Shown in pieces: positions 26,385 through 30,040 of a stretch of DNA of 64,000 bases. This DNA is from Rudanella lutea DSM 19387 (GTDB lineage: Bacteria > Bacteroidota > Bacteroidia > Cytophagales > Spirosomataceae): NCBI RefSeq assembly GCF_000383955.1, contig NZ_KB913013.1, positions 4,731,694 through 4,795,693 of the forward strand, read 5' to 3'. The notes under the pieces were generated by a model, which was not told the DNA's origin, made no database searches, and saw only the letters and a list, made by a program, of their open reading frames with translations. Numbering within the stretch: the first letter of the stretch is position 1; each line of letters begins with the position of its first letter. Made by a program: the position numbers and the translations under genes.

Positions 26385-27695
26385 ATGATAAAAATGCGAC
26401 TTCTTTTGGCCTTGTTGCTCACGGTAGTGATTGGGAGCGGGGCGTGGGCCCAAACGGTTCAGTACACCACTGAGCGGCCCCGGGTCGATGAAGCCAACGA
26501 CCCGGATGTGCTTATTCAGCGCGTTGAGCTGACGAGTCAGTACACGATTATTTACATGCGATATCGGTCGTCGCAGAAATCCGTTTTTCCCCGAAATACG
26601 CCCCGGCGGTTGCCTTTCCCCTTACCGAAAGATCTGGAGGAATATGGACGAACAGACGGCAATACAATTACGTTTGTGGCTTCGGCCCGGCTGTACGTGA
26701 ATCAGGGTGAGAAAGCGTTTAAGTTTATCCGGGCCGAGAATATTCCGGTAGAGCGCCAACCGAACGACCGTCGCCGGGATGTTGAAGCGGGCGAACGCGT
26801 TGATTTTGTGGCATATTTTGAGCGTATCACGCCCGGCTACGAGGTGTTCGATTTGTTTGAGTGCAGCGACCGAAACCGGCCCGGCCAAACCTGTTTCAAC
26901 TTCTGGGGGGTGCACATAACCAACCCCGCGAAGCAAAACCGTACCCCGCCCGCTCGTGAACCCGATGTGCAGGCCCGGCGTACCCCTCCGCCTGCTACCC
27001 CTACAAAGCCCGCTCCGGCTCCCAAAGTAGAGCCGACGCCCGAGCCCGAACCCACGCCAGCTCCGGCGCCTTCGGTGTCCATGAAGGGAACCGTGCGTGA
27101 TGCCAAAACAAAGAAGCCAATCGTAGCTACGGTCACGTACCAACTGTTGTCGGGGGCGGAGTCGGACGGGAACAATTCGGCCGATTCGGTACTGAGTGGC
27201 CGGTTGGCTGGTAATTATCAGATTGCCGCAGAGCCGCTTTCGGTGTATGCCGTTACGGCCAAAGCGAAAGGGTATTTCAGCCAAAGTGACACCCTGACGG
27301 TGACTAAAGCCGATAAACTGCGCGATTTTGACCTGGTGCCCATTGAAGCCGGCACGAAGGTGACGCTGAAAAATATCTACTTCAACGTATCGAAGTTTGA
27401 CCTGAAGTCTGAGTCGTTCCCCGAACTGGATCGGCTGGTGCAGCTGATGCGCGAAAATCCGGGTATGAGCATCCGGCTCGAAGGCCATACGGATACCGTG
27501 GGCGATTTCGACGCCAACGTCGAGCTGTCGCGCAACCGGGTGAATGAGGTAAAAGCCTATCTGGTGCGTAAAGGCATTGCCGCTGCTCGAATCGAAACGA
27601 TTGGGTACGGCCCCTCGCGGCCCATCAATACCAACCGGGGGCTCAAAGAACGGCCCGAAAACCGGCGGGTCGAGATGGTGATCACGAAGTCCTGA
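26385..27695 (+). CDS. OmpA-family envelope protein with Pro-rich linker
   Basis: 436 residues. A signal peptide (MIKMRLLLALLLTVVIGSGAWAQ) is followed by a domain of about 150 residues I do not recognise, a Pro/Arg/Thr-rich linker (residues about 185-230), a carboxypeptidase-regulatory-like beta domain (about 232-320, MKGTVRDAKTKKPIVATVTY), and a C-terminal OmpA peptidoglycan-binding domain (about 325-436) with YFNVSKFDLK and LEGHTDTVGD...LSRNRVNEVKAYL. The OmpA domain should bind peptidoglycan, with the N-terminal part in the periplasm or outer membrane. A second ATG at 26394 is an alternative start. The nth gene follows after only 5 nt. Confidence 0.88.
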   Translation: MIKMRLLLALLLTVVIGSGAWAQTVQYTTERPRVDEANDPDVLIQRVELTSQYTIIYMRYRSSQKSVFPRNTPRRLPFPLPKDLEEYGRTDGNTITFVASARLYVNQGEKAFKFIRAENIPVERQPNDRRRDVEAGERVDFVAYFERITPGYEVFDLFECSDRNRPGQTCFNFWGVHITNPAKQNRTPPAREPDVQARRTPPPATPTKPAPAPKVEPTPEPEPTPAPAPSVSMKGTVRDAKTKKPIVATVTYQLLSGAESDGNNSADSVLSGRLAGNYQIAAEPLSVYAVTAKAKGYFSQSDTLTVTKADKLRDFDLVPIEAGTKVTLKNIYFNVSKFDLKSESFPELDRLVQLMRENPGMSIRLEGHTDTVGDFDANVELSRNRVNEVKAYLVRKGIAAARIETIGYGPSRPINTNRGLKERPENRRVEMVITKS

Positions 27696-27700
27696 ACAAT

Positions 27701-28444
27701 GTGTGGGGGCTGGGGTTTTCTCTTTCAGGTCTCGCCGGTTCCGAACCGGATGCTGAACCGGGCGACCCTGGCCCCCTCAACGTGAAACCGAATTTCGATC
27801 TTGACGTCGTACTCGACGCCATTGCCCAGGCCGTTGCGCCTTTCCCTAAAGCCGCCATGTTCGAACTGGCCGAGCGAGGGTACAATACCCTGTTCGAACA
27901 GCTGATTTCCTGTATTGTCTCGATCCGAACCCTCGACGAAACCACCATTCCGGTATCGCTGCGTCTGTTTGAGGTGGCCCGCACCCCGGCGCAACTGGCC
28001 ACGCTGACCGTCGAAGAGCTAACCGAACGGCTATACGGCACAACCTACCCCGACCAGAAAGCGTACACTCTGCTCGGTATTGCCCGCCGGGCTCTCGATG
28101 AGTTCGACGGGCAGCTCCCCGCTGATTTTGACGTGCTGACTTCGCTCAAGGGCGTGGGGCCAAAATGCGCCAATCTGGCGCTGGGCGTGGCCACGGGGCA
28201 GGCGGCTATCAGCGTCGATGTACATGTGCATCGGGTGGTGAACCGCTGGGGTTATGTGCAGACCAGGCAACCTGAACAAACCCTGAAGGAGCTGGAGCGC
28301 CGGGTGCCCCGCGACCGCTGGATTGATGTGAATCGGCTGCTGATGCCGTTCGGGAAGCACATTTGTACGGGTAATTTGCCCAAATGCTCAACCTGCCCCG
28401 TATTGGCCTACTGCGAACAGGTAGGGGTGGAGCGGCATCGATGA
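27701..28444 (+). CDS. nth: Endonuclease III (DNA glycosylase/AP lyase)
   Basis: Up to 247 residues. The HhH-GPD core has the hairpin LKGVGPKCANLALGV with the catalytic Lys, followed by the catalytic Asp in SVDVHVHRV. The C-terminus has the 4Fe-4S ligands in CTGNLPKCSTCPVLAYC (C-x6-C-x2-C-x5-C). It removes oxidised pyrimidines and nicks abasic sites. No in-frame ATG precedes the conserved core: GTG at 27701 (5 nt after the OmpA gene stop) and GTG at 27782 (VKPNFDLDVVLD) are the candidates, and the second fits the family better. The gene converges with tRNA-Arg and its tRNA-like copies. Confidence 0.93.
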   Translation: MWGLGFSLSGLAGSEPDAEPGDPGPLNVKPNFDLDVVLDAIAQAVAPFPKAAMFELAERGYNTLFEQLISCIVSIRTLDETTIPVSLRLFEVARTPAQLATLTVEELTERLYGTTYPDQKAYTLLGIARRALDEFDGQLPADFDVLTSLKGVGPKCANLALGVATGQAAISVDVHVHRVVNRWGYVQTRQPEQTLKELERRVPRDRWIDVNRLLMPFGKHICTGNLPKCSTCPVLAYCEQVGVERHR

Positions 28445-28450
28445 ACTGAC

Positions 28451-28527
28451 GTAGTGGCTCTGCCGGGAATCGAAGTGGTCCGCCACCGCGGCCGGATCTG
28501 GCGTTTAGCAAACGCCTATTGGGTGAA
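28451..28527 (-). repeat. tRNA-Arg-derived 77-nt tandem copy, distal
   Basis: A 77-nt unit, second behind the tRNA-Arg gene. On the minus strand it keeps the tRNA anticodon arm (GGCGTTT-GCT-AAACGCC, anticodon position GCT instead of CCT), the T-loop TTCGATT with 3' T-stem CCCGG, and the acceptor 3' strand CAGAGCCA. It lacks the acceptor 5' strand and most of the D arm. Between T-stem and T-loop it carries an inserted 12-nt hairpin (GTGG-TCCG-CCAC on the plus strand). It cannot fold into a full cloverleaf. Confidence 0.85.
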
Positions 28528-28604
28528 GTAGTGGCTCTGCCGGGAATCGAAGGCGAACGCGCCCCCGGCCGGATCTAGCGTTTAGCAAACGCCTATTGGG
28601 TGAA
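28528..28604 (-). repeat. tRNA-Arg-derived 77-nt tandem copy, proximal
   Basis: The same 77-nt unit as the neighbour at 28451-28527, differing mainly in the inserted hairpin. Here the hairpin is GGCG-AACG-CGCC on the plus strand, so two stem positions changed on both sides and pairing was kept. The anticodon position again reads GCT. It directly follows the 3' flank of the intact tRNA-Arg. Confidence 0.85.
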
Positions 28605-28608
28605 GTAG

Positions 28609-28680
28609 TGGCTCTGCCGGGAATCGAACCCGGATCTAGCGTTTAGGAAACGCCTATTCTATCCGTTGAACTACAGTGCC
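28609..28680 (-). tRNA. tRNA-Arg (CCU)
   Basis: A 72-nt cloverleaf on the minus strand: acceptor GGCACTG/CAGAGCC with discriminator A, D arm GTTC/GAAT, anticodon stem GGCGT/ACGCT with loop TTCCTAA (CCT at 28647-28645), T arm CCGGG-TTCGATT-CCCGG. CCA is not encoded. It reads AGG. One acceptor mismatch (A4-A69) is visible. A weak promoter candidate (TTG, 20 nt, CAATTTTG, minus strand 28753-28723) overlaps the 3' end of hflX; otherwise the tRNA would depend on read-through of the hflX terminator. Confidence 0.93.
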
Positions 28681-28682
28681 AT

Positions 28683-28717
28683 AAAAAACCTGCAAGGTTT
28701 TAAAAACCTTACAGGTT
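28683..28717 (-). terminator. Terminator of hflX
   Basis: On the minus strand AACCTGTAAGGTTTT pairs with AAAACCTTGCAGGTT and is followed by T6, just before tRNA-Arg. The AACCTG-AAGGTTTT palindrome resembles a common Bacteroidota intergenic hairpin. Confidence 0.8.
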
Positions 28718-28753
28718 GGATGCAAAATTGAGCAAAAAAGGGCAGTTCAGCAA

Positions 28754-30040
28754 CTATGCTTCCGTCGTTGCTCCCTCTAAACCGTAGCCGTCTCCTTCTT
28801 CCGCGAAGTCGGTCAGTGGAATATCGAGCCAGTTGGGATAGATCTGGAAATGTCGTTCGCGAACCAGTTTGTACAGCAAATCGCGCAGCTCCTCGATGTT
28901 CTCCCGGGTTTGTGCCGAAATAAACACCACATTATCTGCTTTTTTGGTCAGATACGTCTTTTTGAGGTATTCCAAAGCCGTTTTCCGGCGGGTAGCCACT
29001 GCCAACGGCTCGTCGCCTTCCTCGTCGTACTCCGGTGCCCACTCCTCTTTCGGTACAAACTGATCTACCTTGTTAAAAACCAGAATAGTCGGTTTCTCCG
29101 CGGCTTTAATGTCGGCCAGCGTCGCGTTGACAACTTCAATATGCTCCTCAAACGAAGGGTGCGACACATCCACCACGTGCAGCAGAATGTCGGCCTCCCG
29201 TACCTCATCGAGTGTCGACTTAAATGACTCGATCAGCGTGGTGGGCAGCTTTCGGATAAATCCAACCGTATCGGTCAGCAGAAACGGGATATTACCCAGA
29301 ACCACCTTCCGCACCGTTGAGTCCACGGTCGCAAACAGTTTGTTTTCGGCAAACACATCGGTTTTGGCCATCGTCCGCATCAGGGTCGATTTGCCCACGT
29401 TGGTGTAGCCTACCAGCGATACCCGCACGAGCCGGTCGCGTTCTTTCCGGCGGGTTTGGCTCTGCCGGTCGATCTTCTCCAGTTTTTCTTTCAGAAAGGC
29501 GATCCGGTCCTGCACAATCCGGCGGTCCGTTTCAAGTTCTTTCTCACCGGGTCCGCGCATCCCCACGCCCCCTTTCTGGCGGCTCAAGTGGGTCCACATA
29601 CGGGTCAGACGCGGGTACATGTACTGGTACTGAGCCAGCTCGACCTGCACGCGGGCCTGAGCGGTCTGCGCCCGCATCGAGAAAATATTCAGAATCAGCA
29701 AACTCCGGTCGAGAACCTTGATGTCCTTAAACGTCGCTTCGAGGTTGCGCACCTGCGCGGGGGTCAGGTCATCATCAAAAATGATGGTGTCGACCGGGTT
29801 ATCGATAATATAGGTCTGAATCTCTTCGAGTTTACCCTTGCCCACAAACGTTCGGGTATCGGCCCGTTCGAGTTTTTGGGTAAAGGTTTTCTTCGTAACA
29901 ATCCCGGATGTTTCGGCCAGGAACGCTAATTCGTCTAAGTATTCCTTCGTCTGTTCGGTGGTTTGCTTTTGGGTGACCAAAGCAACCAGAACAGCGGTTT
30001 CAGCCGGGCCGCCAGTGAATTGTTTTTGTGTTTCAATCAT
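28754..30040 (-). CDS. hflX: GTPase HflX
   Basis: 428 residues. The N-terminal HflX domain (VGKGKLEEIQTYI, FDDDLTPAQVRNLE) and the linker QKGGVGMRGPGEKELETDRR are diagnostic. The Ras-like G domain follows: G1 GYTNVGKSTL, G3 DTVGFIRKLP, G4 NKVD, G5 VFISAQT. HflX binds the large ribosomal subunit and splits stalled ribosomes in a GTP-dependent way. The C-terminal tail (FAEEGDGYGLEG) is acidic and short. The ATG start gives MIETQKQFTGGP. The downstream hairpin terminates it before tRNA-Arg. Confidence 0.96.
   Translation of the reverse strand: MIETQKQFTGGPAETAVLVALVTQKQTTEQTKEYLDELAFLAETSGIVTKKTFTQKLERADTRTFVGKGKLEEIQTYIIDNPVDTIIFDDDLTPAQVRNLEATFKDIKVLDRSLLILNIFSMRAQTAQARVQVELAQYQYMYPRLTRMWTHLSRQKGGVGMRGPGEKELETDRRIVQDRIAFLKEKLEKIDRQSQTRRKERDRLVRVSLVGYTNVGKSTLMRTMAKTDVFAENKLFATVDSTVRKVVLGNIPFLLTDTVGFIRKLPTTLIESFKSTLDEVREADILLHVVDVSHPSFEEHIEVVNATLADIKAAEKPTILVFNKVDQFVPKEEWAPEYDEEGDEPLAVATRRKTALEYLKKTYLTKKADNVVFISAQTRENIEELRDLLYKLVRERHFQIYPNWLDIPLTDFAEEGDGYGLEGATTEA

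Follow-up and report, generated by a model that had tools for sequence, protein, structure and literature searches.

A 17-nt hairpin module in truncated tRNA copies of Rudanella lutea and its relatives, a candidate mobile DNA element recognised by shape

Two truncated copies of a tRNA-Arg(CCT) gene in Rudanella lutea DSM 19387 each carry a 17-nt module in place of a single T-stem base, and modules of the same form recur in copies of other tRNAs in this genome and in its relatives. We judge the chances to be evenly balanced that the module is a minimal, candidate mobile DNA hairpin which is recognised by its shape and survives in spare tRNA copies. This assessment draws on sequence comparison: the modules differ between copies as a block, identical modules occur in unrelated hosts and in both orientations, they share a common footprint at loop edges, and the number of copies varies within the genus.

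Truncated tRNA copies in Rudanella lutea

The locus lies in a stretch of 64,000 nt of contig NZ_KB913013.1 (the window). The intact tRNA-Arg(CCT), source of the copies, occupies 28608..28680 of the minus strand (ARAGORN; Rfam RF00005, 63.2 bits). It is followed directly, on the same strand, by two 77-nt units, a proximal one at 28531..28607 (minus), whose spacer is the tRNA's trailer, and a distal one at 28454..28530 (minus); in both, the match starts at tRNA position 23 and continues to the 3' end. An earlier note, made from the letters of the window, had described them as tandem tRNA-like units without the acceptor 5' strand and D arm, and a letter-by-letter check bears this out. The anticodon arm, T-loop, and 3' acceptor strand are retained, and the anticodon position reads GCT in both copies versus CCT in tRNA-Arg, again as described; the perfected anticodon stem of the distal copy and the exchange of two stem base pairs between the copies (GGCG/CGCC versus GTGG/CCAC) are also as reported there. 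Neither unit is called by ARAGORN or Rfam, as a functional tRNA gene with a full cloverleaf would be.

The same note had placed a 12-nt hairpin in the T-arm. Hairpins are indeed present, but the true insert is 17 nt long (5 + 12) and replaces one base, G53, such that CCGG-G-TTCGATT in the tRNA becomes CCGG-17 nt-TTCGATT in the units. The last 12 nt of the insert can fold into a hairpin with a stem of 4 bp and a loop of 4 nt. The proximal insert, CCGGG-GGCGCGTTCGCC, is located at 28552..28568 (minus), and the same 17-mer is found at L005 and other loci. The distal insert, CCGCG-GTGGCGGACCAC, at 28475..28491 (minus), is identical to a 17-mer located in the T-loop of a tRNA-Glu in a tRNA array of Emticicia.

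The two window inserts differ at 7 of 17 positions, versus 1 of 60 in the remainder of the unit (Fisher p = 5.7e-5). A block exchange, of which the two "compensatory" pairs are part, therefore accounts for the sequences better than stepwise compensation does. The argument that retained pairing in a changing sequence reflects selection thus holds for the pairing itself but not for gradual change, and the letter-for-letter occurrence of the distal 17-mer in the Emticicia tRNA-Glu also speaks against a gradual process. Upstream of the tRNA are a terminator-like hairpin (28687..28717, minus), the empty form of a family that carries inserts elsewhere in the genome, and hflX (28754-30040, minus; NCBIfam HflX, over its cut-off). 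The other flank holds an endonuclease III-like gene (27701-28444, plus; its score is under the cut-off of that model).

Copies of this kind are not confined to tRNA-Arg(CCT). Six of the 36 tRNA genes of this genome are followed within 250 nt by copies that carry a module, namely, Val(TAC), Lys(TTT), Arg(ACG), Arg(CCT) with its two copies, Glu(TTC), and Pro(GGG). The total of 36 represents 37 rows over the Rfam cut-off minus one that is itself a copy, with 150 of 207 candidates scored, and the flanking copies exclude matches of 12 to 18 bases at L055, L037/L068 (Leu), and L051 (-787) as well as a second Lys remnant that has no T-arm. A pattern search of the whole genome returned four exact matches, only in module-bearing copies; with one mismatch allowed, there were 16 matches versus 13 for the control. 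Several copies bring along the tRNA's own spacer or terminator and therefore look like local duplications. The junction of the Val copy shows short homology (by eye), and older copies are degenerate. Elsewhere, at L124, Rfam does call three full-length Val copies that contain a module, at 49 bits. As a separate observation, a group I intron (L039:1205-1414, contig 1 near 3.141 Mb; Rfam, 57.2 bits) resides inside an apparent tRNA-Leu gene of this genome, just downstream of another tRNA.

Form, orientation, and distribution of the module

The module spans 17 nt, with NCGGN followed by a 4-bp stem that encloses a CGNN loop, and sits at the T-loop 5' edge, where it takes the place of a single base. 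Its consistency was assessed by looking for further occurrences of the 19-base tRNA sequence that starts at TTCGA in loci L004-L068, which comprise the tRNA loci of this genome and loci of relatives, the query for the latter having held the tRNA and both window copies. All 17 copies with an intact 3' tail (0 to 3 mismatches in 19 nt relative to the tRNA), from 12 loci, contained the insert, 6 of them in this genome and 11 in relatives; the Pro copy is absent from this test since its tail is too different. By script, 10 of the 17 hairpins form four Watson-Crick pairs in exact register and 1 forms four pairs including G-U. By eye, another 5 form four pairs if shifted by one base, with a T-loop that starts CTCGA, and 1 forms three of four. 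The six copies from this genome, which were found via the tRNA family alone, all have perfect hairpins. In an alignment of ten rows (nine distinct), all four hairpin pairs vary on both sides and are 100% paired, versus 0 of 500 shuffles, although the rows were partly picked by the hairpin rule, so that the alignment is not an independent test of pairing. Among the tRNA-Arg(CCT) loci of relatives, 10 of 29 have real flanking copies (a match of 27 bases at 74% in L014 is left out), each with at least one hairpin-like insert (by eye).

The module is direct at the T-loop 5' edge in downstream copies and inverted in upstream copies, which repeat the 5' half of the tRNA, and in the anticodon loops of some copies. 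Among 17-mer kinds with perfect stems, 28 are direct and 6 are inverted, and 2 of the 6 inverted kinds are identical to direct kinds letter by letter; the motif was built into this search, the identity of the letters was not. Identical direct and inverted modules are not predicted by a constraint acting on RNA only. Further sites include the foot of the acceptor strand (L094) and positions after TTCGA in tRNAs of the Emticicia array. Modules also occur in tandem or nested (L098/L130, L217, and L221), and clusters of several hairpins occur at L230. The tRNA-Met copies of that locus (genome G119) have a T-loop replaced by a run of several different hairpins of up to ~100 nt.

Some modules are shared widely. 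ACGGT-CGGCCGCTGCCG is identical in Val, Pro, and Arg(ACG) copies of several genera, in tRNAs of the Emticicia array, and in tRNA-Met copies of gammaproteobacterial MAGs; in the list of shared 17-mers, several rows that by eye were chance matches or normal tRNA arms were set aside. When named genomes were scanned with the pattern of one module kind, 33 stretches were obtained, 29 of them from Dyadobacter, Runella, Spirosoma, Fibrisoma, Emticicia, Persicitalea, and a Spirosomataceae MAG. The other four are from gammaproteobacterial MAGs, three labelled Haliea, with the identical 17-mer in partial tRNA-Met copies. A fifth gammaproteobacterial MAG locus, L247, was found via the covariance model and is a full-length tRNA-Met copy. 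The MAG labels may be wrong, but this tRNA-Met differs from the family tRNA-Met genes examined (window 13410 and L230).

Within the family, the covariance model of the T-side unit (R1), which inherits the bias of the alignment in pairing, matched 92 of 222 genomes and 18 of 36 genera at E<=0.01. At this per-genome threshold, about 2 of the 92 could be false; weak matches were inspected in part, and one of them (L139, genome G087) contains no module by the module rule. At E<=0.001, the model matched 33 of the 390 genomes sampled across the order, each of them a member of the same family, and in a phylum-wide sample the single match among 395 genomes was Rudanella lutea itself; filters in such large searches lose weak matches. 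Relatives do therefore have homologous units, one of the outcomes the earlier note had looked to. Its other expectation, that the units would always follow tRNA-Arg(CCU), is not borne out: 39 of 46 best-match loci from the family and order-wide searches have a cognate tRNA nearby on the same strand, but these are of nine kinds, with Arg(CCU) making up 23. Five of the seven best-match loci without a nearby cognate tRNA are on a locus of less than 1.9 kb.

Some family genomes contain tandem arrays, of six or more units in some. Behind tRNA-Arg(CCT), the copy number varies within the genus, from one plus one decayed copy in G001 (by eye) and two in G003, one of them cut short, to none in G002. 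In genome G141, contigs 15 and 21 (L120-L123) hold Lys arrays behind two tRNA-Lys genes as well as arrays at two contig ends, so that such arrays probably break assemblies. At L210 of Spirosoma panaciterrae, several kinds of strongly degenerate tRNA-like sequence lie clustered together, one of them with the 17-nt module.

Outside tRNA copies, modules were found in one family of terminator-like hairpins. CCGGG-CGGCCGGTGCCG, a T-loop module common in Dyadobacter, is present in three terminator-like hairpins of the Rudanella lutea genome, one at L151 and two in tandem in L172 (around 10300, plus strand). Empty and filled hairpins can be compared in the same genome, CCTGCAAG-G-TCTCAAAGACC versus CCTGTAAG-17 nt-TCTCAAAGACC, and the footprint is the same as in the tRNAs, with one base replaced by 17. 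With up to two mismatches allowed, one module kind gave 29 matches versus 9 for the reversed pattern, several of those read being in coding sequence; two further candidate matches are L148, which is intergenic, and L143, whose context is ambiguous. The general motif NCGGN-hairpin-CGNN was counted 14 times in 464 kb versus 5 and 8 for two control motifs, with the window alone contributing the CCGGG kind, and in a second count 27 times in 800 kb versus 16 for one control. Outside tRNAs there is one clear terminator family, and a genome-wide dispersed repeat seems unlikely.

Possible origins of the module-bearing copies

How might such modules have come about? In the explanation we prefer, a putative enzyme activity would insert the hairpin module at the loop edges of hairpins, above all at tRNA loops. 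Insertions into a single essential tRNA gene would be lost, and only those in spare copies, i.e., in tandem duplications or tRNA arrays, would survive. From a first copy onwards, the array could grow or shrink by unequal recombination of its tandem unit. Simple copying would keep the stem sequence; mobility alone is insufficient for the many different paired stems, and a constraint on shape is needed. Dispersal outside tRNA copies is weak, which counts against mobility. A wider version of this proposal, which we consider less likely than not, would posit a class of 17-nt DNA hairpins (NCGGN foot, any 4-bp stem, and CG loop) that is read by shape, inserts in tRNA loop edges in either orientation, and has crossed phyla, with broken tandem copies as its refuge.

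Candidates for an enzyme or a donor element were sought in RAYT flanks, neighbouring ORFs, Ro60, and viral contigs, and none was found there. RAYT genes occur in all 12 module-bearing genomes tested, with 47 matches in total. Around 30 of these, 94,772 flanking bases contained 2 motif matches, compared with 18 in 800,000 bases of background, so that the motif is not enriched; three of the 40 background stretches (L172-L174) had been chosen for holding matches. A phage or plasmid origin was dismissed after four scans of viral contigs, run without a positive control, gave no match, and BLAST gave no convincing match to phage or plasmid, a single 24-base phage match at E = 0.2 being disregarded.

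Alternatively, the arrays may be functional structured RNAs, such as tRNA-like decoys, sponges for tRNA-cutting toxins, or 3' processing signals, in which the hairpin is needed by the RNA and disables the copy as a tRNA. We regard this as rather unlikely. Insert pairing is kept in nearly all copies, as an RNA role would predict, and no terminator was found between tRNA-Arg(CCT) and its copies in the window, which may therefore be co-transcribed; elsewhere, however, copies sit behind the tRNA's terminator. A further hint comes from Emticicia agri (L216, NZ_SEWF01000005.1), where an array of normal and odd tRNAs with six modules, some after TTCGA, is accompanied by a Ro60 (TROVE) gene and by YrlA matches that, at 39.7 and 33.3 bits, are weak and fall short of the cut-off of 69. 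In that context, an RNA role may apply. A second TROVE locus with two modules is L304 (genome G157). Over the 222 family genomes, however, Ro60 shows no association with modules, being matched in 11 of the 92 genomes that have them versus 26 of the 130 others (p = 0.14), and the Rudanella lutea genome has no Ro60 match. Nor is the folding energy of either window unit better than that of shuffles (z = -0.16 and -0.44). The copies that follow one and the same tRNA vary within the genus, and modules identical in both orientations are different as RNA, all of which fits an RNA function poorly.

Could the copies simply be neutral debris of tandem duplication? Slippage would then generate the truncated copies, local template switching the hairpins, and gene conversion of T-arms the shared 17-mers. 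This would agree with the spacers and terminators that the units carry, with the short homology at the Val junction, and with the decay of older copies, and the flanking bases common to the T-arms of different tRNAs could drive conversion. However, the insert is at one site in 17 of 17 copies, and T-arm conversion leaves unaccounted for the same 17-mers in terminators, in anticodon loops, and in another phylum. On these grounds, we consider an origin as mere debris quite improbable. More doubtful by far is a degenerate attachment-site array of an element that integrates in tRNA genes, an idea raised in the earlier note. The copies do repeat the 3' end of the tRNA directly, as attachment sites do, but the units are 77 nt apart in the window and ~67-170 nt apart overall rather than kilobases, and in upstream copies it is instead the 5' half that is repeated. 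Moreover, no integrase was detected among the four neighbouring window genes scanned (endonuclease III-like, HflX, OmpA-family protein, and MATE transporter) or among 20 ORFs scanned around six outlying loci, and the viral-contig scans were without match. Taken together, the interpretation given in that note is partly supported.

No truncated copy without a module was seen among the 17 copies with an intact 3' tail, and this absence is accounted for by none of the readings, the shape-recognised mobile hairpin included. If the proposed 17-nt hairpin class were real, few known mobile elements would be as small, and an enzyme that can read the hairpins of tRNA genes in DNA by shape would be implied. 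The hairpin would then move among tRNA kinds, genera, and even phyla, with tandem tRNA relics as its fossil record, and the tRNA-like arrays in Dyadobacter, Runella, Spirosoma, Emticicia, and relatives would be accounted for. If, instead, the arrays are functional RNA, they would constitute a new family of tRNA-derived noncoding RNAs.

Comparison with known systems

Among the open-access papers searched, we recognised no description of tRNA copies with T-loop hairpins. The rtT repeats behind the tyrT tRNA genes of E. coli are tandem units that repeat the tRNA 3' end. The window copies likewise are tandem repeats of a tRNA 3' end but are set apart by the T-loop hairpin, which, to our knowledge, rtT repeats do not have, and a search of 27500-29700 gave no Rfam match to rtT at E<=1. 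Archaeal non-canonical tRNA introns are short inserts at, e.g., 53/54 and 32/33, the same loop positions as the modules. An intron of this type was rejected upon inspection, as its excision would leave G53 missing for most module kinds and the 5' half is absent from the majority of copies. Rickettsia palindromic elements and organelle double-hairpin elements are hairpin inserts into genes and structured RNAs. They resemble the module in this respect but are longer, and we know of no tandem tRNA-copy context for either.

The nearest known kinds are very small hairpin repeats, the cyanobacterial small dispersed repeats (SDRs) and REPs, and the module is not a member of either. SDRs of Nostoc and relatives are reportedly 21-27 nt long and are said to have been proposed as tiny mobile elements by Elhai and coworkers in 2008. 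The module is of about the same size class and is similarly a hairpin with compensatory changes and nested insertions, its paired structure being kept across copies of differing sequence. At 17 nt, however, it is almost wholly tied to tRNA loops and tandem tRNA copies, whereas SDRs are dispersed through the genome. REP palindromes of RAYT transposases have a GTAG or CGTC tag at one end (PMC3733652, PMC3116915). The likeness to REPs and REPINs lies in a short unpaired tag at the foot of the hairpin and in the occurrence of inverted pairs (PMC3733652, PMC3116915). The modules, in contrast, start with NCGGN rather than with GTAG or CGTC, have a stem of only 4 bp, are not enriched near the tested RAYT genes, and have the tRNA loop as their target.
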